Shown here piece after piece: positions 2,167-16,490 of a stretch of 64,000 nucleotides of DNA. Made by a program: the position numbers and the translations under genes. The first letter of the stretch is position 1. Each line of letters begins with the position of its first letter. The notes beneath the pieces were generated by a model. That model was not told the DNA's origin. It worked only from the letters and a program-made list of their open reading frames with translations, and searched no databases. This DNA comes from Natronolimnobius baerhuensis (GTDB lineage: Archaea > Halobacteriota > Halobacteria > Halobacteriales > Natrialbaceae), in assembly GCF_002177135.1 (NCBI RefSeq), contig NZ_MWPH01000001.1, positions 496,001-560,000 on the forward strand, given 5' to 3'.

Positions 2167-2961
2167 CTATCTAGCGTGTCCGTCGTCGTGGCTCGTCACT
2201 CGAGGCTGTGGCATGAGTGCCTCGAGGGGTTGAGCATCGAGCCACTCGAGCAGCGCAACGAGTTGGTCTGTCGCGGCCTCGAACAGTTCCTCGCCGATTT
2301 CGGCCGTGGCCTCCGTTTGATCGCCGAAAACGCCGTTTTGACTGTTGTCAATCGTGTCGTAGAACGTCGTCGAGCCGTGGACGCGTTCAGCGTCGAAATC
2401 GAAGACGGCTCCGCCATCACGAGCCGCCTCGAGCCGATCCTCATGGACAAGTTCTTCAGCGATGTGCATGATCATCGCTGTCTCCTTGGGACCGCCGTGG
2501 GGACCGGGCGTCTCGAAGACTTCCTCGAGTAGGTCGGGAATCGACTCGTCCCACATCCACTCGAGGGCGTAGGCAGTCTCATCATCGTGGAGCCGTTTGC
2601 CAACCTCGCGGAGATGGGCGACGTTGCCGCCGTGGGCGTTGACGTAGACGATGCGGTCGATGCCGTGATAGGTAAGGTTCCGCGAGACGCTCTCGACGAA
2701 GTCGCGAAACACCGGCGGCTCGACCCACATCGTGCCGGGAAACTGTCGGTGGTGAGAACTGACGCCGATCCGGAGTGGCGGCGTACAGAGCACGTCAGTC
2801 CGGTCTGTGGCTGCTCGAGCCAGCGCTTCGGCGATCAGGTGATCAGTTCCTTCTGGAAGGTGCGGGCCGTGTTGTTCGGTCGAGCCAATTGGGATGACCG
2901 CAAGCGATTCGGTTTCGACGTACTCGGTCAAATCCGGCCACGCCTGCTCGGGAAGGTACAT
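2167..2961 (-). CDS. Creatininase-family amidohydrolase
   Basis: This 264-residue protein carries the metal-binding signature GSTEQHGPHLPEGTDH at residues 26-41, with Glu29, His31 and Asp40 as expected ligands. It also has YVNAHGGN and HGGPKETAMI, the other creatininase-family landmarks. The family hydrolyses cyclic amides or formamides. Archaeal members include ArfB, the formamide hydrolase of riboflavin and F420 synthesis, but the sequence alone does not say which substrate is used. I chose the ATG at 2961 because AGGGAGAG lies just upstream and because family members start near this MYLPEQAW segment; a frame extension reaches 3039. The gene is divergent from the NikR-like regulator and shares its 181-bp upstream region. 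Confidence 0.85.
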   Translation of the reverse strand: MYLPEQAWPDLTEYVETESLAVIPIGSTEQHGPHLPEGTDHLIAEALARAATDRTDVLCTPPLRIGVSSHHRQFPGTMWVEPPVFRDFVESVSRNLTYHGIDRIVYVNAHGGNVAHLREVGKRLHDDETAYALEWMWDESIPDLLEEVFETPGPHGGPKETAMIMHIAEELVHEDRLEAARDGGAVFDFDAERVHGSTTFYDTIDNSQNGVFGDQTEATAEIGEELFEAATDQLVALLEWLDAQPLEALMPQPRVTSHDDGHAR

Positions 2962-3112
2962 ACACTGTTCTCTCCCTGAACTCGCAAAACAGTCGGGGTC
3001 GCTGCTGGCTGGACCGACGAGGTGGAGTGGCCACTGCAAGTCAGTGTGTCATTCGTTGTAATTGCCACTATCGCGTGTTTACTGACGACAGCGAGTGCTG
3101 ACGATGATAAAC

Positions 3113-3119
3113 CTTAATA
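3113..3119 (+). promoter_or_regulatory. Candidate TATA element of the NikR-like gene
   Basis: CTTAATA is centred 27 nt before the ATG at 3143. This is the spacing expected of a haloarchaeal leaderless transcript. The surrounding 60 nt are AT-rich relative to flanking genes. Confidence 0.5.
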
Positions 3120-3142
3120 CTCAACGGCGGTCGAGTTATTAT

Positions 3143-3574
3143 ATGGCAGTTGTAAGCGTCTCGATGCCCGACGAACTTCTCGAGCGACTCGACCAGTTCG
3201 CCGACGAGCATGGCTACACCGGCCGTAGCGAAGTCGTCCGAGAGGCCTCTCGGAATCTCCTCGGCGAGTTCGAAGATACGCGACTCGAGGAGCGCGACCT
3301 CATGGGACTCGTCACGATTTTGTTCGACTACGAGACCACGAGCGTCGAAGAGCGGATGATGCACCTGCGTCACGAACACGAAAACCTCGTCGCCTCGAAC
3401 TTCCACAGCCACGTTGGCGACCACTACTGCATGGAACTGTTCGTCCTCGAGGGCGAACTCGAGGATATCTCGACGTTTGTCGGGAAAATCCGTGCAACAC
3501 AGGATGCGCTGACGGTTGATTACTCTGTGATTCCGGTCGATGATTTCGATCCGATTTCACAGGAACACTCCTGA
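3143..3574 (+). CDS. NikR-type metal-responsive transcription regulator
   Basis: The 143-residue protein has an N-terminal ribbon-helix-helix ([18 protein letters not shown], then [12 protein letters not shown]) and a C-terminal ACT-like metal-sensing domain. His77, His88, His90 and Cys96 reproduce the spacing of the high-affinity nickel site of E. coli NikR (His76, His87, His89, Cys95). It is therefore probably a nickel- or related-metal-dependent repressor. The start at 3143 puts the RHH strand at the very N-terminus, as in the family, and fits the TATA element 27 nt upstream. No nickel transporter is adjacent; the nearest possible target is the divergent creatininase gene. A paralogue lies at 26453-26896. 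Confidence 0.88.
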
Positions 3575-3585
3575 TCGACGGACTG

Positions 3586-4083
3586 TTACGTGCGAACCGA
3601 CCAGCGACTCGCTGAGAGTGACTGGCTGTCGACAACGCGGCTGAGTCCCTGTCGAAGGAGGACGAGAACTGCAAGTAGGGCACCGATGAACACTGCGAAC
3701 ACCGGTGCGAGAAAGACACCGCCAATCCCGGCGGCGAGAATGTAGATACTGCCCACGACCAGCCAGAGTGTCGTGAGCGAAAGTACACCGAAGACAAGTG
3801 ACGTGAGGAGCGCAAGCGTCGTTGCGTCACCCGCACGCCGTCGATTTGTGTCGGTCACCAGTGACGAGCCGAGTCGATAGCCATGTGCCAGCACACCGAC
3901 CAGAACCCATAGCGCGAACACTCCTGGAGTCCCGATGACCACAACGGGGACGAGAAGTTCGCTGAGTGTCCATCCGATACGTCCCGAGGGCTGGACGAGA
4001 AACACCACCGCAATACTGACGACTCCTAGGGCCAGCGCCGCCTCGAGACCATCGAGAGTGAACGGAGAGGGCAGACGACTCAT
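3586..4083 (-). CDS. Hypothetical integral membrane protein
   Basis: The 165-residue product has four or five hydrophobic segments: about residues 14-32, 40-65, 90-110 and 113-145. The loop between the second and third (YRLGSSLVTDTNRRRAGDAT) is charged. I do not recognise the family. It converges with the NikR-like gene (11 bp apart) and is transcribed away from the GlmU-like gene, so it is probably monocistronic. Confidence 0.7.
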   Translation of the reverse strand: MSRLPSPFTLDGLEAALALGVVSIAVVFLVQPSGRIGWTLSELLVPVVVIGTPGVFALWVLVGVLAHGYRLGSSLVTDTNRRRAGDATTLALLTSLVFGVLSLTTLWLVVGSIYILAAGIGGVFLAPVFAVFIGALLAVLVLLRQGLSRVVDSQSLSASRWSVRT

Positions 4084-4307
4084 ACAGACAGCATGTCGGA
4101 CGCTGGCAATAACCGTTCGGCTAGGTCAAGAATCATTGTACCTGTCCGCTCGAGCACTCGGGGCAGCCCCAGTGCTGGCAACGCAGCGCAGTCCCCGCCA
4201 AAACAGACCCGTAATAATGCAAACTATTCTGAGTGGAATTTTCTCGAGACATATCGAAATTCCGTTGAACCAGTGGTTCTAAGGGTTTGTCACCTCTCAA
4301 TTCGTAT

Positions 4308-5495
4308 ATGGATTCGATCTCTGCTGTCGTTCTTGCGGGAGGCGAGGGGTCTCGCCTTCGCCCGCTCACGCACTATCGGCCAAAGCCGCTGTTACCGGCT
4401 GCAACGACGCCGATCCTCGAGCACGTCTTTGATCAGTTGATCGAGGCGGGCGTGACGGACATCACCGTTGTCGTCGGCTACAAACGCCAACGCGTGCAGT
4501 CACACTTCGGGTCGACCTACCGCAACATTCCGCTGACCTACGTCACACAGGACCACCAGTTCGGCAGCGGCCACGCCCTGCTGGCTGCGGATGGAACCGT
4601 TGAGGGACCGATGCTCGTCGTCAACGGCGACCAGTTCGTCGAGAGTGCGATCATCGAAGACGTCCTCGAGGCCCACGACGGCGACAATGCGGTCGCGACA
4701 CTCGGCGTCCTCAACCGGATGGACCTCGACCCCTACGGCGGCGTCGTCCTCGAGGACGAGACGGTTACCGCAGTCGTCGAAAACCCGGACGACGACCGGA
4801 GCTATCGACTCAACGCGGGCGTCTACGTCTTCGAATCCGAGATTTTCGAGGCGATTCGCGACGCCGAGTCTCGAGCGGGCGAACAGTCGTTGACCGACGG
4901 CATCGCCGAACTCCTCGACCACGGCGAACCCGTGCGAGGAACGGTTTCAGACGGTGTGTGGGTCGATGCGACCTACCCGTGGGATCTGCTCGACGTCTCC
5001 TTCGAACTGCTCGAGAGCGGTGTCGTCGACGAGAAGCGAGCCGCGCCGGTCGCTGAGACGGCAACGGTTCACGAGTCGGCCGTGATTCGCGATCCGGTTG
5101 TTATCGCCCCCGACTGCGAGGTTGGGGCGGGTGCCGTCGTCGGGCCGTTTACCTGTCTCGGCGAGAATGCGACCGTCGGCTCGAACGCGGTCGTCGAACG
5201 AAGCGTGATCGACTCGGATACGCGAATCGGTGCCAACGCGACGGTTATCGACTGCGTGACCGGCGTTGGCGTCACGATTGGCAACGGCACGGCGATTCCG
5301 GGCGGCCCCGGCGACGTTCGCGTTGGCGACCGCATCTTCGAGGGTGAGCGACTGTGTGCGCTGCTCGGTGATCGTGTCATGGACCGAGGTGGAAGCACGT
5401 ACGTGCCAGGGGCCGTCATCGGCCCGGATGTCTCCGTCGAAGCCGGAGCCACCGTCCACGGAACCATCGCCGAAGACACAGAGGTTCGATCCTAA
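4308..5495 (+). CDS. GlmU-like sugar-1-phosphate nucleotidyltransferase/acyltransferase
   Basis: The N-terminal half (residues 1-230) is a nucleotidyltransferase Rossmann domain with the signature LAGGEGSRLRPLTHYRPKPL starting at residue 9 and VVNGDQFV as the metal/sugar region. The C-terminal part, from about residue 250, is a left-handed beta-helix of hexapeptide repeats (for example AVIRDPVVIAPDCEVGAGAV), as in acetyltransferases. This two-domain form is the archaeal GlmU-like arrangement that makes UDP-N-acetylglucosamine or a related nucleotide sugar from glucosamine-1-phosphate. The stop TAA at 5493-5495 overlaps the glmS ATG by one base, so the two are co-translated. A frame extension to 4287 is unlikely because the family starts at MDSISAVVLAGG. 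Confidence 0.88.
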   Translation: MDSISAVVLAGGEGSRLRPLTHYRPKPLLPAATTPILEHVFDQLIEAGVTDITVVVGYKRQRVQSHFGSTYRNIPLTYVTQDHQFGSGHALLAADGTVEGPMLVVNGDQFVESAIIEDVLEAHDGDNAVATLGVLNRMDLDPYGGVVLEDETVTAVVENPDDDRSYRLNAGVYVFESEIFEAIRDAESRAGEQSLTDGIAELLDHGEPVRGTVSDGVWVDATYPWDLLDVSFELLESGVVDEKRAAPVAETATVHESAVIRDPVVIAPDCEVGAGAVVGPFTCLGENATVGSNAVVERSVIDSDTRIGANATVIDCVTGVGVTIGNGTAIPGGPGDVRVGDRIFEGERLCALLGDRVMDRGGSTYVPGAVIGPDVSVEAGATVHGTIAEDTEVRS

Positions 5496-7282
5496 TGTGT
5501 GGAATTATCGGCTACACCGGCTCTGAGAACGACGTTCTCGAGGTGCTCATGTCGGGGCTGTCGAACCTCGAGTACCGGGGCTACGACTCTGCAGGCGTCG
5601 CGATTGCCAACGACTCGCTCTCGGTCGAAAAACGCGAAGGCGAGGTCTCGGCACTCGAGGATGCACTGCCCGAAACGGGCATCGACGGACTCGCGGGAAT
5701 CGGCCACACGCGCTGGAGTACCCACGGGCCACCCTCAGACGAAAACGCCCATCCCCACACTGATTGTACAGATCAGGTTGCGGTCGTTCACAACGGCATT
5801 ATCGAGAACTACCAGGACATTCGGACGACACTTGAGGACGACGGCCACACGTTTCAGAGCGAGACGGACACCGAGGTCATTCCGCATCTCATCGAGGATG
5901 CACTCGCAGACGGAGCCAACCCCGAACAGGCGTTTCGAGAGGCAGTCAGCCGCCTCGAGGGTAGTTACGCCGTCGCAGCCGTGTTTCAGGACTCAGAGAC
6001 GATCTATGCGGCTCGCCATGAGTCGCCACTGGTGCTTGGACTCGGCGACGACGGCCACTATCTAGGCAGCGACGTCCCCGCATTTCTCGAGTATACGGAT
6101 CGCGTCATCTACCTCGAGGACGGGCAGTTCGCTCGCATGACGCCGGACGAAATCGTCGTCACGGATCGCGAGGGAGCGGTCGTCGAGATGGCAGTCGACA
6201 CCGTCGCGTGGGATCCCGAAGACGCCGGCAAGTCGGGGTATGACCACTACATGCTCAAAGAGATCAACGAGCAGCCACTGGCGCTTCGCCAGTGTCTCCG
6301 CGAGCGCGTCTCCGAACTCGAGCGGACGATTACCGTCGATGAACTCGCCGACCTCGAGCGGCGGGGACCGGTCCAGTTCGTCGCCTGCGGAACCTCCTAT
6401 CACGCGGCGCTGTATGGCGCGCGATTACTTCGCGAGCAGGGCATTCCGGCCCAGTGTTTCCTCGCGAGCGAGTACGACGCGCGCTCGATTCCGATTACCG
6501 ACGAGACGCTCGTCGTCGGCGTCACCCAAAGCGGCGAGACGGCAGATACGATGTCGGCACTGCGTGGAGCGAACCAAGCCGGCGCGACCACGCTCGCGCT
6601 GACCAACGTCGTCGGCAGTTCGGCCGCCCGCGAGTGCAACTATGTCATGTACATCCGTGCCGGCCCGGAGATCGGCGTCGCCGCGACCAAAACGTTCGTG
6701 AGCCAGCAAGCCGCCCTCGCGATGCTCTCGGGCGTCCTCTCCGAGACGCACTCGTCCGAACTCATCAGGCGACTCCGCCGACTCCCTGACCAGCTCCAGC
6801 AGGTGTTAGACGAGTCGGCAGTGCGTGAGATTGCGAGTACGTATGTCGACGCCGACGCGTACTTCTTCATCGGCCGGGGCTACAACGCGCCCGTCGCGCT
6901 CGAGGGCGCGCTCAAGATGAAAGAGATCACGTACAAACACGCGGAGGGCTTTGCCGCCGGCGAGTTGAAACACGGGCCGCTGGCGCTCGTGACCGAGGAG
7001 ACGCCCGTATTCGCGCTGATCACGGGGCCGAACGCAGCCAAGACGCTCGGCAACGTCAAAGAGGTCGAAGCCCGCGGCGCGCCAGTGATCGCCGTCACCG
7101 ACCAGCCGGAACTGGTCGAGCAGTACGCGACGCACGTTCTCGAGGTGCCAGCGGCCGGCCGCCGACTGACGCCGATTCTCGCGAACGTCCAGTTGCAGTT
7201 GCTTTCCTACTGGGTTGCAAACGAACTGGGACGCTCAATCGACAAGCCGCGCAATCTGGCAAAGAGTGTGACCGTCGAGTGA
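5495..7282 (+). CDS. glmS: Glutamine-fructose-6-phosphate aminotransferase (isomerizing)
   Basis: This is a full-length 595-residue GlmS. Cys2 of MCGIIGYTG is the glutaminase nucleophile, and NLEYRGYDSAGVA and GHTRWSTHG follow in the class II glutamine amidotransferase domain (residues 2-220). Two SIS sugar-binding domains follow: FVACGTSYHAALYGARLL near residue 293 and FIGRGYNAPVALEGALKMKE near 455. The C-terminal tail KPRNLAKSVTVE is the conserved end that closes the active site. It makes glucosamine-6-phosphate from fructose-6-phosphate and glutamine. Overlap with the upstream GlmU-like gene gives a compact pathway operon; the missing mutase step is at 43638-45050. Confidence 0.97.
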   Translation: MCGIIGYTGSENDVLEVLMSGLSNLEYRGYDSAGVAIANDSLSVEKREGEVSALEDALPETGIDGLAGIGHTRWSTHGPPSDENAHPHTDCTDQVAVVHNGIIENYQDIRTTLEDDGHTFQSETDTEVIPHLIEDALADGANPEQAFREAVSRLEGSYAVAAVFQDSETIYAARHESPLVLGLGDDGHYLGSDVPAFLEYTDRVIYLEDGQFARMTPDEIVVTDREGAVVEMAVDTVAWDPEDAGKSGYDHYMLKEINEQPLALRQCLRERVSELERTITVDELADLERRGPVQFVACGTSYHAALYGARLLREQGIPAQCFLASEYDARSIPITDETLVVGVTQSGETADTMSALRGANQAGATTLALTNVVGSSAARECNYVMYIRAGPEIGVAATKTFVSQQAALAMLSGVLSETHSSELIRRLRRLPDQLQQVLDESAVREIASTYVDADAYFFIGRGYNAPVALEGALKMKEITYKHAEGFAAGELKHGPLALVTEETPVFALITGPNAAKTLGNVKEVEARGAPVIAVTDQPELVEQYATHVLEVPAAGRRLTPILANVQLQLLSYWVANELGRSIDKPRNLAKSVTVE

Positions 7283-7319
7283 GACGGTCGGCAGAGTGAG
7301 TTTTCAGCTGAGAAGCGTA

Positions 7320-7426
7320 CTCAGAGGAATTCTCGTAGCGATTCATAGATTCCCATACTGAAACCGATTCACGGCCCCGTCACGTCCCGGTAGACACAGC
7401 CGGCTGGCGACGAGAACCCCTCTCAG
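7320..7426 (+). repeat. 107-bp inverted repeat, left copy
   Basis: This stretch is the reverse complement of 9499-9605 with five mismatches in 107 positions, all single-base changes and no gaps. It starts 38 bp after the glmS stop, and its right end covers the stop codon of the MFS gene. The two copies flank a 2,072-bp segment holding that transporter and a sugar nucleotidyltransferase. Neither copy codes for a recognisable protein. Confidence 0.95.
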
Positions 7427-8607
7427 ATCCGCGTCCCGAGTGCGACCAGCCAGAAGCCAACGGCGACGACGACGACGGTCAGCGCCAGCGCAACGGTGTA
7501 ACTGCCGGTGTAGGCGACGCTCCCGGTTCCAAGCGGCGGCATCGCCAGTGCACCCAGCCCACCAGCGACGTTGAAAATCCCGATGATCGCCGTATCCCGC
7601 TTCGGATCGAAAATCTCCATCAACACCGGAATGTACAGCGTGGCACTCCCGCCCAGTCCGAGGCCAATGATGATAATCGCTACCCCAAGGGCCAGCCAAC
7701 CGGGCAAAAACAGCACGCAGACGCCGATTCCCGCACAGGCGAGCGACGCCAGAAACGCCCGCCTCGAGCCGACGATATCTGCGACGTAGCCGCCACCGAT
7801 TCGGGAGATGATGCTGACGCCGCCGATGAGTCCGAACGCGACGGATGCGGCCGCTTCGGTCATCCCGCGCGCTGCGAAGTAGTCGATGGCGTAGGCGGCG
7901 AGCAACTGGTACCACGCGAACGCCAGACTCATCCCAACGAACAGCAACTGGAAGGTTCGGCTGCCGGCGAGTCCGCGGACCCACTCGAGGACGCCGAGGA
8001 ACGACTCTGACGTCTGGTCGGCCCATCGCGGGCGTCGACAGACGAGGCCGGCGAGGGCGAACGCAGCGGCGGTTATCCCCATGACGACGAGAAAGCCCTG
8101 CCGCACGCCGACGGTCTCGATTGCGCGCTGCCAGATCGGTGGCAAGACGGTCAGTCCCAGGCCGTTGCCGACGAATATCAGGCCGGTTGCGACGCCGCGG
8201 CGCTCGTCGAACCAGCGCGGAACGACCGAGGCAAGCAAGACGAAGACGGTCCCCAGTGCAAGCCCGAGCACGGCGAACACGGCGACGAGTCCGAGATACG
8301 ACTCCGTGACGTAGAGTGCGGGCGCGATGGCGGCGGTCGCCCCCGCACACGCGAGAAGAACGGCGCGAGCGGCGACTCGTGTCGAGGCGATGCCGATCAG
8401 GCCCGAGCCGATGAAAAAGGCAAACAGCATCACCGAGAAAACGGTCGACATCGCAACCGGCGAAATGCCGAACGCCTCGCTAAATGGCTGGTGAAACACG
8501 CCGTAGGAAAGCGGCGTGCCGAACGTAAACACCATCGCGATGGAACCGACGATGGCAACCAGCCAACTGCGCCGACTATCCGGTTGCTCTCTGGAGGACG
8601 AAGACAC
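7423..8607 (-). CDS. MFS transporter (monocarboxylate/oxalate-formate type)
   Basis: The 394-residue protein has about twelve hydrophobic segments in two halves separated by a basic/acidic loop (RRPRWADQTSESFLG, near residue 200). Features of the major facilitator superfamily include VPRWFDERRGVATGLIFVGNG between helices 4 and 5 and GYVADIVGSRRAFL after helix 8. The pattern resembles the OFA/monocarboxylate branch, so the substrate may be a small organic acid, but this is inference. It lies 79 bp downstream of the nucleotidyltransferase on the same strand and may be cotranscribed. Its stop codon lies inside the left inverted repeat. Confidence 0.85.
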   Translation of the reverse strand: MSSSSREQPDSRRSWLVAIVGSIAMVFTFGTPLSYGVFHQPFSEAFGISPVAMSTVFSVMLFAFFIGSGLIGIASTRVAARAVLLACAGATAAIAPALYVTESYLGLVAVFAVLGLALGTVFVLLASVVPRWFDERRGVATGLIFVGNGLGLTVLPPIWQRAIETVGVRQGFLVVMGITAAAFALAGLVCRRPRWADQTSESFLGVLEWVRGLAGSRTFQLLFVGMSLAFAWYQLLAAYAIDYFAARGMTEAAASVAFGLIGGVSIISRIGGGYVADIVGSRRAFLASLACAGIGVCVLFLPGWLALGVAIIIIGLGLGGSATLYIPVLMEIFDPKRDTAIIGIFNVAGGLGALAMPPLGTGSVAYTGSYTVALALTVVVVAVGFWLVALGTRI

Positions 8608-8686
8608 GACTGCTCGTTTGGGTTCAGTCGGCGAAAACGTTCGGATACGAGACTGTCTCGCCGGTTACAGTGCCAGTGCGTGTCAG

Positions 8687-9436
8687 TCAGGACGAGGTCT
8701 GCTCGAGGTCGGGATCGCCGTCCACACCATCCTGAATCCGGGTTTCGGCTTCCTCGCGGTCTTCGGGATAGCCAACGTCGATTCGCCAGCCCTCGAGGCC
8801 GATGGCGTCGATGGTGCGCCCGGACTGGATCAGCAGGTCGATGGCTTCGCTGATCTCGTACTCGCCGCGATTGGAGGGCTGGACGAGGTGACAGGCGTGG
8901 AAGATCGCGGGCGTAAATGTATAGAAGCCGGTCATGACGAGGTTCGACGGCGGCTCGTCGGGTTTCTCGACGACATCGGTGATCTCGCCGTACTTGTTCG
9001 TATCGCAGACGCCGTATCTCGAGGCTTCCTCCCAGGGGACCTCTTCGACGAGGAAGGCGGCGTCCGCGCGGTCCTCGCGCTGGCGGCGCACGACATCCTC
9101 GAGGTTGGCCTCGAAGATGTTGTCGCCCAGAATCAGCATGAAGTCATCCTCGACGTGCTCCTCGACGGTCAACAGGGCGTGAGCGAGGCCCTGCTGTTCG
9201 CGCTGGTGGGCGTAGGTGATGGGGACGTCACGGTATTCATCGCCGTAGTGGTCGATAATCCGCTCTTTGAGATAGCCAACGACGACGATTAGCTCGGTCG
9301 CACCGAGTTCGACGAGTTGATCGAAACAGTGAGTGAGAATTGGCTCTCCGTCGACCTCGACCATCCCCTTTGGCTTGTCATCGGTCAGCGGCCGCAGACG
9401 CGTCCCCTTGCCGGCGGCAAGAACGACAGCTTGCAT
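8687..9436 (-). CDS. Glucose-1-phosphate nucleotidyltransferase (UTP or dTTP type)
   Basis: The 249-residue single-domain enzyme begins MQAVVLAAGKGTRLRPLT and continues with KPKGMVEVDGEPIL, the nucleotide-binding signature of sugar nucleotidyltransferases. LILGDNIF holds the metal-binding Asp, VVEKPDEPPS is the sugar-phosphate loop, and GEYEISEAI and WRIDVGYPED complete the family pattern. The size and end are close to haloarchaeal AglF-type uridylyltransferases that feed protein N-glycosylation, though dTDP-glucose synthase function cannot be excluded. There is no C-terminal hexapeptide domain, unlike the paralogue at 4308. A possible TATA (AAGATACTT) lies between the start codon and the right inverted repeat. 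Confidence 0.88.
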   Translation of the reverse strand: MQAVVLAAGKGTRLRPLTDDKPKGMVEVDGEPILTHCFDQLVELGATELIVVVGYLKERIIDHYGDEYRDVPITYAHQREQQGLAHALLTVEEHVEDDFMLILGDNIFEANLEDVVRRQREDRADAAFLVEEVPWEEASRYGVCDTNKYGEITDVVEKPDEPPSNLVMTGFYTFTPAIFHACHLVQPSNRGEYEISEAIDLLIQSGRTIDAIGLEGWRIDVGYPEDREEAETRIQDGVDGDPDLEQTSS

Positions 9437-9498
9437 GCCCAGAATATCCCAAATGCGCAGACAAGTATCTTCTGATTGGGAGGATCCAAAGACGGTGA

Positions 9499-9605
9499 CT
9501 GAGAGGGGTTTTCGTCGCCAGCCGGCTGTGTCTACCGGGAGGTGACGGGGCCGTGAATCGGCTTCAGTATACGAATCTATGAATCGCTACGAGAATTCCT
9601 CTGAG
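9499..9605 (-). repeat. 107-bp inverted repeat, right copy
   Basis: This is the reverse complement of 7320-7426, with 102 of 107 bases identical. It lies 62 bp upstream of the nucleotidyltransferase start codon and 117 bp before the hydrolase at 9722. The interval 9437-9721 holds this repeat, the presumed promoter of the nucleotidyltransferase and no gene that I can support. Confidence 0.95.
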
Positions 9606-9721
9606 TCTGGACTCGAGCGATCACCTACCCTCGAGAAACGAGCGGCGTGAGCCGCCCGCGACTCGCTTCTGACGAGCAAATCACGGCAGTTATACCGCCT
9701 CGTTCCTTCAATCCCGCCACC

Positions 9722-10279
9722 ATGTGGCCACTCGGACACGCTGCAGTCGGCTATCTCCTCTATACGCTCGCGACGCGGGCGCGATTCGACCGGCCGCCGA
9801 CGGCACTCGCCCTCTGTGCACTCCTGGTCGGCACGCAGTTTCCGGACCTCGTCGACAAGCCGCTCGCGTGGTACGTCGGCGTCCTGCCAACCGGCCGAAC
9901 CCTCGCGCACTCGTTGTTAGTCTTGATTCCCGTCTCCCTCGTCGTTCTCGCGCTCGCTCGCCGCTACGACCGGACGGAACTCGGCTTCGCGTTCGTCCTC
10001 GGCGCGCTCTCACACGCCGTCGTCGACGTCATCCCCGCACTCTGGGGCGCAGCCGACCCCAACATGCTGCTCTGGCCGCTTGTGCCCGTTGAGGCCTACG
10101 AGAGCGGCCCACCGACCGTCGTGGGGCTGTTCCTCGCGTCGCTGTCCGATCCGTACTTCCTCCTCGAGTTCGTCCTCGCCGCGCTCGCGCTCGTGGCGTG
10201 GCGACGCGATGGGTACCCCGGCCTCGAGCTCGTTCGCTCGGCGGTTGGGCGGGTGCTTCCGGGTCGGTCGGACGCCTGA
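9722..10279 (+). CDS. Membrane-bound metal-dependent hydrolase (DUF457/YdjM family)
   Basis: The 185-residue protein opens with MWPLGHAAVGYLLY and contains FPDLVDKPLAW, RTLAHSLLVL and LGALSHAVVDVIPALW. These His/Asp motifs between hydrophobic segments typify the YdjM-like membrane hydrolases. I see four to five membrane segments. The ATG at 9722 is preferred over an upstream GTG frame extension because family members begin at this MWPxGHxAxGY motif. It converges with the lipoprotein at 10319. The substrate is unknown. Confidence 0.8.
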   Translation: MWPLGHAAVGYLLYTLATRARFDRPPTALALCALLVGTQFPDLVDKPLAWYVGVLPTGRTLAHSLLVLIPVSLVVLALARRYDRTELGFAFVLGALSHAVVDVIPALWGAADPNMLLWPLVPVEAYESGPPTVVGLFLASLSDPYFLLEFVLAALALVAWRRDGYPGLELVRSAVGRVLPGRSDA

Positions 10280-10318
10280 GACGAACCGGGAACGACACGC
10301 TGTGCTGACACAGATCAG

Positions 10319-10930
10319 TTATGGTGCGTTGTACGTCGTCTCCTGATGGTCGCCGGAGAAATTGCCGTGTCGATGGGTGAGTGTCGCCTGCTGGGGCTGC
10401 TGTGGGGCGTCGACACGAATCAACGCGGTGTACGGTGTCTCTGCGTTCAAGTCTGAGCTGCCATCATGATACGTACAGGTGTAGGCATGAATTGACTCGT
10501 CCATTTGTTCGATACCAGCTACGTCGACCTGATACCCCAGACTCCGCGTCGTCACCTGCCAGCCGAGCATGACTGCCGTCTCGTAATCGGTCTCACTGAC
10601 GAACGTGATGATCGACGCATGGCCTTCGTCATCTTCCTCGAGTTGGTCCAGTCCAAACACTGTTTCTGCCTCGTCGGCTGATCGCGCACAGACGAACGAT
10701 GTCTCGTCTGTTGACCCAGTCGAATCGGCGGCCGACTCAGCCGTAGAAAATGAAACACCAGTGTGAGCAAGCATCGTAGTCTCGTAGGAGGAGTCACTCG
10801 CGTCGTCAGGAGCGTGCGAACATGCCGCGGCGCGTCGCTGTGTCTCCTCGGAACGAATTACGTCAAGACACCCGGCAACCGCAGATCCAACGAAAAGACT
10901 CCCGCCAGCGAGAACAGTTCGGCGGTGCAT
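10319..10930 (-). CDS. Tat-type lipoprotein of unknown function
   Basis: The 203-residue product starts MHRRTVLAGGSLFVGSAVAGC. It has a twin-arginine followed by a hydrophobic stretch and a lipobox ending at Cys21, so it should be exported by Tat and anchored by a lipid on the outer face of the membrane. The mature part is acidic and soluble with no family that I recognise; there are a few Cys residues (ACSHAP, FVCARSAD, YTCTYHDG). Starting at 10930 removes a 30-residue extension that would bury the signal. Direct repeats 13-47 nt upstream may control it. Confidence 0.75.
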   Translation of the reverse strand: MHRRTVLAGGSLFVGSAVAGCLDVIRSEETQRRAAACSHAPDDASDSSYETTMLAHTGVSFSTAESAADSTGSTDETSFVCARSADEAETVFGLDQLEEDDEGHASIITFVSETDYETAVMLGWQVTTRSLGYQVDVAGIEQMDESIHAYTCTYHDGSSDLNAETPYTALIRVDAPQQPQQATLTHRHGNFSGDHQETTYNAP

Positions 10931-10942
10931 ATTGATTCGAAC

Positions 10943-10977
10943 GTTGACAGTCAGATGTAAAAGTACTGTTGACTGTC
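10943..10977. promoter_or_regulatory. Paired GTTGAC(A/T)GTC direct repeats, candidate operator
   Basis: GTTGACAGTC at 10943-10952 and GTTGACTGTC at 10968-10977 are 25 bp apart start to start. They flank the likely TATA region (CTTTTACA read on the minus strand) of the lipoprotein gene. The first contains the palindrome TGACAGTCA. Placement either side of the core promoter suggests a regulator site; this is inference. Confidence 0.45.
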
Positions 10978-11152
10978 GTTTGGTATCGGTTATTTCGCTT
11001 CGATTGTTCTCGAGGCACACGCAACGTACCCGCGTTTATGTAGCGAACCCGCAGCAAGCGGAGGGTACCTGACACCGACCACTCGAGAAGACAACTCGTC
11101 GGCGAGTACAATATGTGTAGTTAAGTACGGCGACGGTCGTCTGTAGAGTACG

Positions 11153-12130
11153 ATGGTCTACTATGCGGGCGTCGACCTCGGCGCGACGAACGTGCGGGCC
11201 GCCGTCGCCAAAGGCGACGGGACGACAATCGGTGTGAGTAAAAACGCCACACCGCGGGGACCGACCGGCATCGACGTCACGGAAGGCGTGCTCCAGACAG
11301 TGCGAGAGGCCTGTATCGACGGCGACATTGATCCCGAAGCCGTCGAGTCGGCCGGTATCGGCTCGATTGGGCCGTTCGACCTCGCCGAAGGTACTGTGGT
11401 CGACCCGGCGAACCTCCCCGACTCGATTGACCGAATCCCGCTCACCGGCCCGATTGGTGAACTGATCGACAGCGACGAAGTCTACCTGCACAACGATACG
11501 AACGCGGGCGTCATCGGCGAACGGTTCCACGCCGACCGCAACCCCGACGACATGGTCTACATCACCATCTCCTCGGGGATCGGTGCCGGCGTCTGCTGTG
11601 ACGGTGAAATTTTGGCCGGCTGGGACGGCAACGCGGGCGAGGTCGGCCACTGCGTCGTCGACCCGCGTGGGCGACTCACCTGTGGCTGTGGCATCGACGG
11701 CCACTGGGAGGCGTACTGTTCGGGCAACGGCATCCCCGACTACACTCGCCTACTCGCCGAAGACGACCCAACCATTACGACCTCGCTCCCGCTCGAGGAT
11801 CCCGACTTTACCGCTAAAGACGTCTTCGAACTCGCAGGCGAGGACGAACTGGCAGACTACACGATTGACCAACTCGCCCACTGGAACGCCATCGGCGTCG
11901 CGAACGTGATCCACTCCTTTGCCCCGCTCGTGATCTCCTTCGGCGGTGCCGTCTCGCTGCACAATGAGGACCTCGTGATCGACCCGATTCGCGAGCGTGT
12001 CGCTGACATGGTCCTGAGCAACGTCCCCGAAATCCGCGTGACGGATATGGGCGACGACGTGGTACTCGAGGGCGCACTCGCGAGTGCGATGACCGAAGGG
12101 ACCGGCGACCAGCGGCGATTCCAGAACTGA
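11153..12130 (+). CDS. ROK-family glucokinase
   Basis: The 325-residue enzyme has the ATP-phosphate loop YYAGVDLGATNVRAAV at its N-terminus. HNDTNAGVIGE holds the catalytic Asp, and GNAGEVGHCVVD and TCGCGIDGHWEAYCSG follow. The last is the ROK zinc motif, here with His where many members have the third Cys. It should phosphorylate glucose to glucose-6-phosphate with ATP in the cytosol, feeding the semi-phosphorylative or amino-sugar pathways. Length agrees with archaeal ROK glucokinases. The upstream 222 bp (10931-11152) is shared with the divergent lipoprotein. Confidence 0.88.
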   Translation: MVYYAGVDLGATNVRAAVAKGDGTTIGVSKNATPRGPTGIDVTEGVLQTVREACIDGDIDPEAVESAGIGSIGPFDLAEGTVVDPANLPDSIDRIPLTGPIGELIDSDEVYLHNDTNAGVIGERFHADRNPDDMVYITISSGIGAGVCCDGEILAGWDGNAGEVGHCVVDPRGRLTCGCGIDGHWEAYCSGNGIPDYTRLLAEDDPTITTSLPLEDPDFTAKDVFELAGEDELADYTIDQLAHWNAIGVANVIHSFAPLVISFGGAVSLHNEDLVIDPIRERVADMVLSNVPEIRVTDMGDDVVLEGALASAMTEGTGDQRRFQN

Positions 12131-12203
12131 ACGGCAATTCGCAATTGCGAGTCTCGAACCGCGTGAGGTGAGGTTATGTGTCTTCGGCGACGTATTGAGA
12201 GAT

Positions 12204-13715
12204 ATGCGACGACGAGCCCTCCTTCGGACTGGCGGCGCGGGCCTGGGAATCGCGTTCGCGGGGACTGGACTGCTCGCCGGCCACAGCCGAGCACAGCCCA
12301 CGACAACACAGTCTTCGTACGAACCGCTCGGCCGCGTCGACATCGATAACGCGGCGGAAGCCGTCGTTGGCGACGACGGCGACATCGTCTACGTCGCGGC
12401 CACTACCGGCTTTGCGACCGTCGATATTAACGATCCGAGCGAACCCGAACTCCTGGCCGAAGAGCGCGGCCTCGAGTTCGATGAACGGAGATTCAACGAA
12501 ATTCTTGACGTGAAAGTCGACGGCGACCTGCTCGCTGTTGCTGGCCCGGCAAATCAGGCGAACGACTTTCTCTTTCACGGCTTTGCAGTATACGACGTCA
12601 GCGACCCTGCCGAACCGGAACTGCTCGGCGAGCCGTACGAAACCGGCTACCACATCCACAACTGCTACCTCGAGGACGAAACGCTCTACGTCGTCGGCAA
12701 CGGCGAACTCGAGAATCCGCTCGTCATCTACGACCTGGGCGGCGACGAAATCGAAGAGATAGGTCGGTGGTCATTGGTCGAACACGAACCGGACTGGCAG
12801 GATGTCGACTGGCTCGTACGGTACCTCCACGACGTGTACGTCCACGACGACATCGCCTACCTCGCCCACTGGAACGCCGGAACCTACCTGCTCGACGTCA
12901 GCGACCCCAGCGATCCGGCGTACATCTCCCACGTCACAGAGACAACGCTTGAGGACGAACTGGCTGTCGAGGACGACAACGAGGCACAGATGGGACTGCC
13001 AGGCAACGACCACTACTCAGCGGTCGACGACACGGGCGATCTCCTCGGGGTCGGCCGCGAGGCCTGGGCGACGGGCCAGGGAGATCCTGACGGTCCCGGT
13101 GGGATCGATCTCTACGACGTAAGCGACCCTGCCGATCCCGTCCACCAGGCGACAATCGACGCGCCTCGAGCGCTCAACGAGCGCTCCAACGGCGGGCTCT
13201 GGACAACGGCACACAACTTCGAACTGCGCGACGGCGAACTCTACGCCTCGTGGTATCAGGGTGGCGTGACGATTCACGACGTGAGCGACCCGAGCGAGCC
13301 CGAGGAAATCGCCTCATGGCGCGACCCCGAAACCGCGGGCTTCTGGACCGCTCGAGTCGCCGAGTCCGGCGAGACGTTCGTCGCGAGCAGTACCGAACTC
13401 ATCCCGAACGCGCCGACGGAAGGCGCGCTCTATACGTTCCCAATCGAGGCCGGTGAACGGGCCGACCAGCCCTCACTCACCGATCCCGACGATCTCGCGT
13501 TCGACGTCGAAGCGCCGGACGACGAGAACGGGGAAAGCGGCGGTAGCGATGACGCGGAGACCAACGCTGACGACGGAGGCAACGGCGATGAGAGTGACAG
13601 TGAGAACGGCGACAACGGCTCGGATTCCGTCGCCGGCTTTACCATCGGGGTCGGCGCTGCGGGTGGACTCGCCGCGCTCGAGGTGCTTCGACGACGCAGC
13701 GACCGCGACGAGTGA
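12204..13715 (+). CDS. Tat-exported LVIVD-repeat surface protein
   Basis: The 503-residue protein begins with MRRRALLRTGGAGLGIAFAG, a Tat signal, followed by cleavage near HSRAQ. The body repeats the phrase YDVSDPAEPELL or close variants (DINDPSEPELL, LDVSDPSDPAYI, YDVSDPADPVHQ, HDVSDPSEPEEI). This is the LVIVD/beta-propeller repeat of extracellular proteins. A Ser/Asp/Glu-rich linker (residues 435-475) leads to VAGFTIGVGAAGGLAALEVL and RRRSDRDE. This resembles an archaeosortase sorting tail but lacks the strict PGF triplet. The start at 12204 puts the twin Arg at the N-terminus; a GTG at 12168 would not. It is probably a surface-anchored binding protein. Confidence 0.85.
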   Translation: MRRRALLRTGGAGLGIAFAGTGLLAGHSRAQPTTTQSSYEPLGRVDIDNAAEAVVGDDGDIVYVAATTGFATVDINDPSEPELLAEERGLEFDERRFNEILDVKVDGDLLAVAGPANQANDFLFHGFAVYDVSDPAEPELLGEPYETGYHIHNCYLEDETLYVVGNGELENPLVIYDLGGDEIEEIGRWSLVEHEPDWQDVDWLVRYLHDVYVHDDIAYLAHWNAGTYLLDVSDPSDPAYISHVTETTLEDELAVEDDNEAQMGLPGNDHYSAVDDTGDLLGVGREAWATGQGDPDGPGGIDLYDVSDPADPVHQATIDAPRALNERSNGGLWTTAHNFELRDGELYASWYQGGVTIHDVSDPSEPEEIASWRDPETAGFWTARVAESGETFVASSTELIPNAPTEGALYTFPIEAGERADQPSLTDPDDLAFDVEAPDDENGESGGSDDAETNADDGGNGDESDSENGDNGSDSVAGFTIGVGAAGGLAALEVLRRRSDRDE

Positions 13716-13811
13716 ACTGTCTCGGGTAGCTTTCTCGAGTGCGCCGGCGCTCGCGTGGCCGAACAATGATATGCCCGGCACGCCGAGTGAACACCAACGA
13801 ACGGTGTCCCA

Positions 13812-16490
13812 ATGACGAGTCACTACGATCACGAGCAGGTCCAGGAGTTTTGGCAATACGTCTGGGAGCGCGACGAGGTGTATCACCTCGAGGACGACGC
13901 CGTCGATCCGACCTACGTCCTCGGTATGTTTCCCTACACGTCGGGGACGCTGCATATGGGTCACGTCCGCAACTACGCAATTACGGACGCCTACGCGCGC
14001 TACCGACGAATGCAAGGCGATGACGTGCTCCATCCGATGGGATGGGACGCGTTTGGCCTTCCAGCCGAAAACGCCGCCTACGAGCGCGCGAGCGATCCGA
14101 ACTCGTGGACACAGGCCTGTATCCGCCGGATGCGTGAAGAACTCGAGACGATGGGCTTCGGGTACGACTGGTCGCGAGAGATCACGACCTGTGAGCCAGA
14201 CTACTATCAATGGAATCAGTGGCTGTTCAAGCGATTCTACGAGGCGGGACTCGTCGAGTACGAGGCCGCCTCGGTTAACTGGTGTCCCGACTGCGAGACG
14301 GTGCTGGCTGACGCACAGGTCACAGAGGATGCAGACGGACACGTCTGCTGGCGCTGTGAAACGCCCGTCACTCGGCGGGAACTCGATCAGTGGTTCTTTA
14401 CGATTACCGACTACGCCGAGGAACTCGTCGACGGACTCGACGACCTCGAGGGCTGGCCCGACGGCGTCCGCGAGATTCAGCGTAACTGGATCGGCCGACA
14501 GGAGGGGACCCGAATCACGTTCGGAGTCGCTGAGGGGAAGACAGAGACCACCGCCGTCGACGTGTTCAGCACGCGCCCGGACACCATCTACGGCGCGACC
14601 TTCCTCGCGGTCTCGCCCGGCCACGAGTTCGCGCGCGACCTCGCCGAAACCGACGACCGCGTCGCAGAGTACGTCGATACCGTCCGCGAGCAAGACCCCG
14701 GCGACGTTGGCCTCTCGGGTGTCGAAACCGACGCGACGGCGATTCACCCGCTGACCGGCGAGGAACTGCCGGTGTACGTCGCGGGCTACGTCCTCGAGGA
14801 TGTCGGCACCGGCGCGGTAATGGGCGTTCCCGCACACAACGAGCGCGATCACGCCTTCGCCGCCGAGCACGACCTCCCCGTTACAGGCGTCGTTACGCCG
14901 ACAGCAGGGGCGACCGACGTCGACCTCGAGTCCGCAGCCTACACCGGCGAGGGCATTCTCGAGGATAGCGGCGAGTATTCGGGCCTCGAGAGCGAGGCGG
15001 CTCGCGAGCGGCTGGTTGAGGACCACGACGCCCTCGAGGCGGACGTGACCTACCGACTGCGCGATTGGCTGATCTCCCGGCAGCGCTACTGGGGGACGCC
15101 GATTCCGGTCGTTCACTGTGATGACTGTGGGCACGTCCTCGTTCCGGACGAGGACCTGCCTGTCGAACTGCCGGAGTTCGTTCGGACGACGGGGAACCCG
15201 CTCGCGGAACACGAGTCGTTCCGCGAGACCGAGTGTCCCGACTGCGGCGGCCCGGCCCGCCGCGAGACGGATACGATGGACACCTTCGTCGATTCGTCGT
15301 GGTACTACCTGCGATTCCTCTCGCCGGACTACGACGACGGCCCGTTCGACCCCGAAAAGGCAGCCGAGTGGATGCCCATCGACGTCTACGTCGGCGGCGA
15401 CGAACACGCCATCCTCCACCTGCTCTACATCCGCTTTTTCGCCCGTGCGCTGTCCGATCTCGGGCTGCTCGAGTGTCGCGAGCCGGTCCAGGAACTCATC
15501 AGCCAGGGGACGGTGCTGTACGACGGCGAAAAGATGTCGAGTTCGAAAGGCAACGTCGTCGCGCCACAGGAGTACGGTGCGGAGACGACCCGACTGTTCG
15601 TCCTCTCGGCGGCCCACCCCGAACAGGACTTCGAGTGGACGGCAAACAATGTTCGCGGGGCCTACGACCTCCAACAGGACCTCTACGGGATGGCGACTGC
15701 GTTCGTCGAAGAAGGCGATACCCGCCTCGAGCGAACGCCTCACGACGACTATCTTGCTGGCGAGATCGACCGGACGATCATCGCCGTCACCGAGGAGTAC
15801 GAGCGGTTTCGGTTCCATCGCGCCGCAACCGAAATTCGAGAACTGGCCCAACTGCTTCGACGCTATCGAGCCTACGACCGGCCCCACGACGAGACCTACC
15901 GCCGCGGGCTATTGACCCTCGCGGCGTTGATTTCGCCGATGGCACCGCATCTGGGCGAGGAGTGCTGGAACAAACTCCGCGGTGATGGTCTCGTCGTCGA
16001 CGCCGACTGGCCCGAACCAGAGAGTGAGATCGAAGACCACCGCCTCGAGCGGCGACTGGTCGAGCGAACGCTCGCGGACGTCCGCGATATTGTCGATGTT
16101 GCCTCGATTGACGAACCCGAGCGGATCGACCTGATTGTCGCGCCGACGTGGACGTATCGCGCGGCGGCACAGGCTGGCGACGCCGGTGACGGACCCCCGA
16201 CCGAGGCCGAACTCGAGTCACTCGCCGAGCGCCTCCGCGATGAGACGGACGCGGACATCGACGCTGATCGAATCAGTGCCTTCCTCGAGCAGCGAGCCGA
16301 CGCACACGGCCACGGCGTTGACGCGATGCTCGAGCCAGAGCGCGAGCGCCTGTTGCTCGAGCAGGCCGCCTGGCTCGTGACGGACGAGTTCGAGGCGGAC
16401 GTGACGATTCGCCGCGCGGGCGCGGTCGATCTTGGGGATGACCGCGAGACGACCGCCCGACCCGGCAAACCGGCGATTCGGATCGAGTGA
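13812..16490 (+). CDS. leuS: Leucyl-tRNA synthetase, bacterial-type body with archaeal-type tail
   Basis: The 892-residue enzyme has the class I signatures GTLHMGHVRNY near residue 46 and KMSSSKGN near residue 575. It also has the LeuRS editing domain with VFSTRPDTIYGATFLAVSPG and GVPAHNERDHAFA. WCPDCETVLA and CWRCETPV form the zinc-binding module typical of the bacterial type, and the domain order is bacterial. The extreme C-terminus, ETTARPGKPAIRIE, instead matches the archaeal/eukaryal-type LeuRS end. Natrialba magadii is known to carry two such chimeric LeuRSs, one clearly more active. Which of the two this gene matches, and whether a second copy exists, cannot be seen here. Confidence 0.95.
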   Translation: MTSHYDHEQVQEFWQYVWERDEVYHLEDDAVDPTYVLGMFPYTSGTLHMGHVRNYAITDAYARYRRMQGDDVLHPMGWDAFGLPAENAAYERASDPNSWTQACIRRMREELETMGFGYDWSREITTCEPDYYQWNQWLFKRFYEAGLVEYEAASVNWCPDCETVLADAQVTEDADGHVCWRCETPVTRRELDQWFFTITDYAEELVDGLDDLEGWPDGVREIQRNWIGRQEGTRITFGVAEGKTETTAVDVFSTRPDTIYGATFLAVSPGHEFARDLAETDDRVAEYVDTVREQDPGDVGLSGVETDATAIHPLTGEELPVYVAGYVLEDVGTGAVMGVPAHNERDHAFAAEHDLPVTGVVTPTAGATDVDLESAAYTGEGILEDSGEYSGLESEAARERLVEDHDALEADVTYRLRDWLISRQRYWGTPIPVVHCDDCGHVLVPDEDLPVELPEFVRTTGNPLAEHESFRETECPDCGGPARRETDTMDTFVDSSWYYLRFLSPDYDDGPFDPEKAAEWMPIDVYVGGDEHAILHLLYIRFFARALSDLGLLECREPVQELISQGTVLYDGEKMSSSKGNVVAPQEYGAETTRLFVLSAAHPEQDFEWTANNVRGAYDLQQDLYGMATAFVEEGDTRLERTPHDDYLAGEIDRTIIAVTEEYERFRFHRAATEIRELAQLLRRYRAYDRPHDETYRRGLLTLAALISPMAPHLGEECWNKLRGDGLVVDADWPEPESEIEDHRLERRLVERTLADVRDIVDVASIDEPERIDLIVAPTWTYRAAAQAGDAGDGPPTEAELESLAERLRDETDADIDADRISAFLEQRADAHGHGVDAMLEPERERLLLEQAAWLVTDEFEADVTIRRAGAVDLGDDRETTARPGKPAIRIE

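Follow-up and report, generated by a model that had tools for sequence, protein, structure and literature searches.

PhiCh1, a halovirus of the related haloarchaeal host Natrialba magadii, possesses an invertible region that lies between inverted repeats and is served by a dedicated recombinase. Several MITEs have been described in haloarchaea, including ISH2 and MITEHsal1/2 of Halobacterium and HqIRS of Haloquadratum. They are short and non-coding, carry terminal inverted repeats, generate target duplications, and occur as dispersed copies without a transposase of their own (PMC3119063, PMC10264941). The duplications measure 6-8 bp in the MITEHsal2 insertions listed in PMC10264941 and 10 bp in an ISH2-ISH8A cassette (PMC10264941). 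SMR-A of Haloquadratum walsbyi, ~110 bp long, has prominent terminal inverted repeats, many copies, and no known transposase; it is reported to make no target duplication and to strike IS605-type elements and PATEs (PMC3119063). Inversions of the kind considered here are already known for mobile elements (PMC10264941, PMC10969869). The inversion isomers of the Halobacterium gas-vesicle plasmid and other ISH-associated inversions (Ng et al. 1991, as summarized in PMC10264941) combine inverted copies of mobile DNA with an inversion of the intervening sequence. The Correia repeats of Neisseria (PMC10969869) are MITEs that affect the expression of neighboring genes and are subject to inversion.

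The window is a 64,000-nucleotide stretch of the Natronolimnobius baerhuensis genome (G000), which was compared with a congener (G001) and an outgroup (G020). Two arms, at 7320-7426 and 9499-9605, had been described in a first-pass annotation as inverted repeats around a two-gene segment devoid of a transposase, and this description is correct. Read directly, the arms are reverse complements identical at 102 of 107 positions, with the five mismatches at arm positions 34, 35, 44, 65, and 95. A repeat search returned arms of 108 nt (7319-7426 and 9499-9606) that are 95% complementary and enclose 2072 nt. The second-best inverted repeat within 7 kb is merely 33 nt long and 73% complementary, which excludes a chance origin of the arms. 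An MFS transporter gene and AglF are the only genes between them.

Each arm consists of a C, a 3-bp duplication, a 99-bp element, a second 3-bp duplication, and a G. The left MITE-like element (7324-7422, plus strand) directs its head to glmS and its tail to the MFS gene, and is flanked by TCA on the outer side (7321-7323) and the inner side (7423-7425). The right copy (9503-9601, minus strand) is inverted, with its tail toward AglF and its head toward the hydrolase gene, and is flanked by TGA at 9500-9502 (inner) and 9602-9604 (outer). The two elements score 78.8 and 72.3 bits, respectively, with a profile (R2) built from 48 copies. Homology between the arms stops precisely at CTNAG on both sides, which points to two insertions and not to a chance segmental duplication. 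Together with the existence of a third copy in the same genome (G000:C2:475312), these edges rule out an origin of the arms by segmental duplication or a staggered break. The single-strand fold of the arm is no better than that of shuffled sequences (z = -0.8), so no hairpin role is claimed, and no RNA gene or Rfam family was found in 6800-10000.

The element belongs to a dispersed family. BLAST of the arm among 100 relatives gave no match outside the present genome, and the exact core pattern in GTDB, IMG/VR, plasmids, and phages likewise gave nothing outside it. A profile search was needed to reveal its relatives. A first profile built from three copies gave hits in 21 of the 125 host-family genomes, nearly all ~95-109 bp long and at most 16 per genome. 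The R2 profile finds nine copies in the present genome, and one copy resides on a plasmid of the element-rich Natronosalvus amylolyticus (record NZ_CP101160). No autonomous transposon with the element's ends was found at terminal-repeat sites that lack a partner in the first list and come from six of the eight scanned genomes. The family appears to be undescribed in the literature searched, ISfinder excluded; a literature search with the end sequences also gave no relevant match.

The element is non-coding, ~99 bp long, and has imperfect terminal inverted repeats of ~16 bp. In the copy alignment the ends read TAGGGATTMTCGTMG, in opposite orientation and at near-constant spacing; they are also given as TAGGGATTMTCG, with 3-bp TNA duplications. 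Of 48 copies, 36 carry identical 3-bp flanks (TCA/TCA in 25, TGA/TGA in 11, mixed in none; Fisher p=1.7e-9), which identifies the flanks as target duplications inside C-TNA-G. The empty site of the third copy is preserved in G001, where ...ATAGT-TCA-GTAGACG runs uninterrupted with a single TCA. There the congener has CACATAGT-TCA-GTAGACG and the present genome CACGTAGG-TAA-[element]-TCA-GTAGACA, the first duplication having mutated to TAA. The flanks of copies in genera g14 and g29 are too diverged for an empty-site comparison, and the G001 site homologous to the copy at G000:C1:1130628 was not located. With terminal inverted repeats, a fixed 3-bp duplication, and mobility evidenced by the empty site, the arms and their relatives are classified by anatomy as MITEs. 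The repeats had been suspected of being remnants of a mobile element, a suspicion that the target duplications of these MITE-like insertions support.

Other small repeats accompany the family. A further family of short repeats, whose ends resemble TACGGWTTRCTGTAA and whose target is apparently similar, adjoins or nests with the first in L078, L102, L103, and the flanks of L062 and L088. The element also occurs in length variants (L097:2861-3002, L102:3041-3240) with ~134-180 bp between the ends, one of which apparently holds another small repeat inside.

Copies are over-represented at stop codons. Among 43 copies, 20 have an open frame of at least 80 codons whose final codon is the duplicated TGA, compared with ~8.5 expected, and the two other frames give counts of 8 and 9 (p about 1e-4, binomial). 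The stop codon lies in the target duplication both in the MFS gene and in the gene neighboring the third copy. The left arm was correctly said to hold the transporter stop codon: the minus-strand TGA at 7423-7425 is the inner target duplication of the inserted element. Since the target is duplicated at the stop codon, the stop codon is kept, and this seat offers a simple reason why the family does little harm.

A blastn comparison with G001 aligns 2202-7283 (+), 7426-9476 (-), 9678-10279 (+), and 11043 onward (+) of the window. The inverted segment, 7426-9476, corresponds to G001:C1:225930-227994 and is the sole inverted block in about 74 kb (G000:C1:476037-550078), the remainder being collinear. 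In G001, glmS, AglF, the MFS gene, and the hydrolase gene follow one another in this order on one strand. The first-pass annotation had predicted that recombination between the arms would bring both genes in line with glmS and had proposed a comparison of orientation in relatives. The congener matches this prediction: it carries the opposite orientation, the reversal is confined to the stretch between the arms, and each genome has one orientation. As expected of an inversion between inverted repeats, the comparison shows that an inversion did occur, with its breakpoints at the arms.

The junctions in G001 contain no element, not even a decayed copy, in a profile search with filters off. When the spacer on the glmS side, CTCAG, and the spacer on the AglF side are joined in this order, the G001 spacer is restored (z=9.6, with 0 of 300 shuffles as good); the score comes mostly from the conserved AglF upstream region, and the join itself aligns without a large gap. 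In G001 the spacer between the MFS and hydrolase genes exceeds that of the window, counted without its element, by ~100 bp. This length hinted at an ancient shared copy, a candidate rejected because the spacer neither resembles the element (z=0.7) nor gives a profile hit with filters off. The G001 order is probably ancestral; the elements and the inversion would then have been gained in the present lineage. As the genus is sampled by two species, each with a single genome, only one comparison underlies the direction and timing. In the outgroup, AglF is divergent beside a hydrolase homolog as in the window, with another spacer and with neither the MFS gene nor glmS, a layout that weakly favors the window order as the older.

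The flanks of the segment, glmS on the left (5495-7282, plus strand) and the gene of a YdjM-family membrane protein of the metal-dependent hydrolase type on the right (9722-10279, plus strand), are collinear with G001. Both enclosed genes are inverted relative to G001. The MFS gene (7423-8607, minus strand) encodes a protein that ends in ...GTRI* here and in ...GTRIR* in G001. It weakly resembles the monocarboxylate/oxalate transporter group, so a sugar role of this transporter is not required. AglF (8687-9436, minus strand), a UTP--glucose-1-phosphate uridylyltransferase, is assigned by NCBIfam NF041313 with 444 bits against a cut-off of 400. Alignment with G001 defines a conserved region upstream of AglF (9437-9476, minus strand), a probable promoter, that travels with the gene in both orientations. 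AglF differs from its G001 counterpart at 15% of fourfold sites, compared with ~33% in four neighboring genes (p=4e-5), which suggests recent gene exchange or conversion. In G020 (L206:8878-10659), AglF is 88% identical to that of the window, and the neighboring hydrolase homolog is followed by a sugar epimerase-like gene.

Six further copies in the present genome were mapped to G001, several of the loci having been selected without knowledge of their arrangement in G001. Three are collinear (C2:475312, C2:183583, C1:652339), one lies within a region that is variable relative to G001 (C2:424583), and two are located at inversion breakpoints (C3:483772, C2:142861). The copy at C3:483772 lies at the right end of a 2.5-kb inversion relative to G001 (L180:1185-3771 = G000:C3:481185-483771), and recognizable homology ends ~68 bp to its left. 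The copy at C2:142861 (L167:2861-2952 = G000:C2:142861-142952) is tail-truncated; in the comparison with G001 it marks an end of an inversion-type rearrangement of 77 kb, whose partner breakpoint (G000:C2:220048-220241) contains no copy. Each of these rearrangements thus has an element copy at one end only, and recombination between two copies is no general account of all the breakpoints. The distribution is suggestive of an enrichment of copies at breakpoints, in small numbers and with the genome-wide background outside the count. Inverted element pairs 5.7-5.8 kb apart in G113 (L110:2853-2957 and 8649-8752, on G113:C14) and in G013 (G013:C35:31792 and 37565) are candidates for more inverted segments.

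In our preferred reading, to which we assign a probability of about 0.77, the arms are two MITE-like copies, and exchange between them inverted the AglF-MFS segment after the split from the congener. One copy would have come to lie in the glmS-AglF spacer and another, in opposite orientation, at the MFS stop codon; an exchange between the two would then have inverted the 2.07-kb segment in the present lineage. The exchange may have been homologous recombination of the copies, or a transposition that made the second copy while inverting the intervening DNA. We infer from the sequences that the arms caused the inversion, as well as the exact reaction and the ancestral status of the G001 order. 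The arms share 95% identity with each other, compared with 82-85% with the third copy and 58-67% with all other copies. They are sister copies, which favors a local copying event. Their corrected divergence of 0.048 amounts to ~1/8 of the value at fourfold sites between the species (0.411); as a rough guess, this would date the separation of the arms to well after that of the species.

The transposition route would require a single resident copy that attacked a nearby CTNAG intramolecularly, copying itself in inverted orientation and flipping the intervening DNA in one event. It needs no second independent insertion, and it suits the fact that the arms are by far each other's closest relatives, as well as the spacing of the young copies: of the three in this 3.9-Mb genome, two are separated by 2.2 kb (probability by chance estimated at ~0.003). 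The pattern of duplications, with TCA outside and inside on the left and TGA inside and outside on the right, also fits. However, this route demands such a capability of a putative transposase, the other copy-bearing breakpoints hold one copy each, and two insertions followed by homologous recombination would leave the same end sequence. TCA and TGA are reverse complements, so the final sequences are identical and the duplications cannot separate the two routes. We regard the one-event route as a tentative possibility. It is unlikely that the inversion arose by other means and that the junction spacers received their elements afterward. The elements favor gene ends and spacers, where inversion breakpoints fall too, and the copy at G000:C3:483772, with matching duplications and a left-flank homology that ends 68 bp away, would fit insertion beside an older breakpoint. 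At the present locus, however, exactly two breakpoints exist in 74 kb, and both bear copies that are oppositely oriented sisters. Insertion of the entire 2.3-kb unit as a composite transposon is scarcely credible: the outer ends with their terminal repeats have the anatomy of a mobile element, but the outer duplications, TCA (7321-7323) and TGA (9602-9604), do not form the direct repeat that would lie outside the end elements, and G001 has both genes at the same locus without arms.

The first-pass annotation had also proposed a reversible module controlling surface-sugar supply, which is not upheld. An active module, whose arms recombine often so that both orientations coexist in the population and alter glmS read-through, would account for long inverted repeats around a segment found in both orientations across species. 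We consider it very unlikely, however. Because the arms are absent from G001, the orientation found there does not represent the alternative state of a living switch. The two repeats are 5% diverged and bear no sign of homogenization, the AglF upstream region moves along with its gene, and the MFS protein, only weakly similar to the monocarboxylate/oxalate group, need not act on sugars. The proposed genome-wide search for the repeat unit did return further copies, whereas its companion, the search for a nearby recombinase, found no recombinase domain among the neighboring genes examined from 2167 to 16490, two of which have no Pfam match; the dedicated recombinase of a site-specific switch is thus missing among these genes. 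On the sequence evidence, the segment is an evolutionary rearrangement and not a demonstrated switch.

The locus shows a MITE-like family at both ends of a species-level inversion, which is more informative than a static repeat would be. The family has spread over many genera of the host family, leaving 3-bp duplications. Should inversions result from its transposition, the family would explain part of the local gene flipping seen in haloarchaea, a proposal that can be tested with existing strains. A further reading, which is rather doubtful, would see in the repeats a new haloarchaeal family whose target overlaps the TGA stop codon, so that it would insert behind genes without harm, and whose transposition would itself invert neighbors, as a recurrent gene-flipper throughout the host family.

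The element is similar to the haloarchaeal MITEs in anatomy and dispersal, but has a length of ~99 bp with a 3-bp TNA duplication, shorter than the duplications of MITEHsal2 and of the ISH2-ISH8A cassette. It resembles SMR-A in size, terminal repeats, copy number, and the lack of a known transposase. The two are set apart by the description of SMR-A, not by its sequence: the family here has 3-bp duplications and often sits at stop codons. The repeats of the gas-vesicle plasmid are far longer than the 107-bp arms, and the present locus displays only two species-level states. In the Correia repeats the element itself inverts, whereas here the genes between two elements invert. PhiCh1 has a dedicated recombinase, whereas none was found among the genes examined here. 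Relative to these systems, the locus offers an archaeal case, resolved to the base, that links a MITE-like element of ~100 bp with an inverted gene order; each of two sister species displays one of the states.
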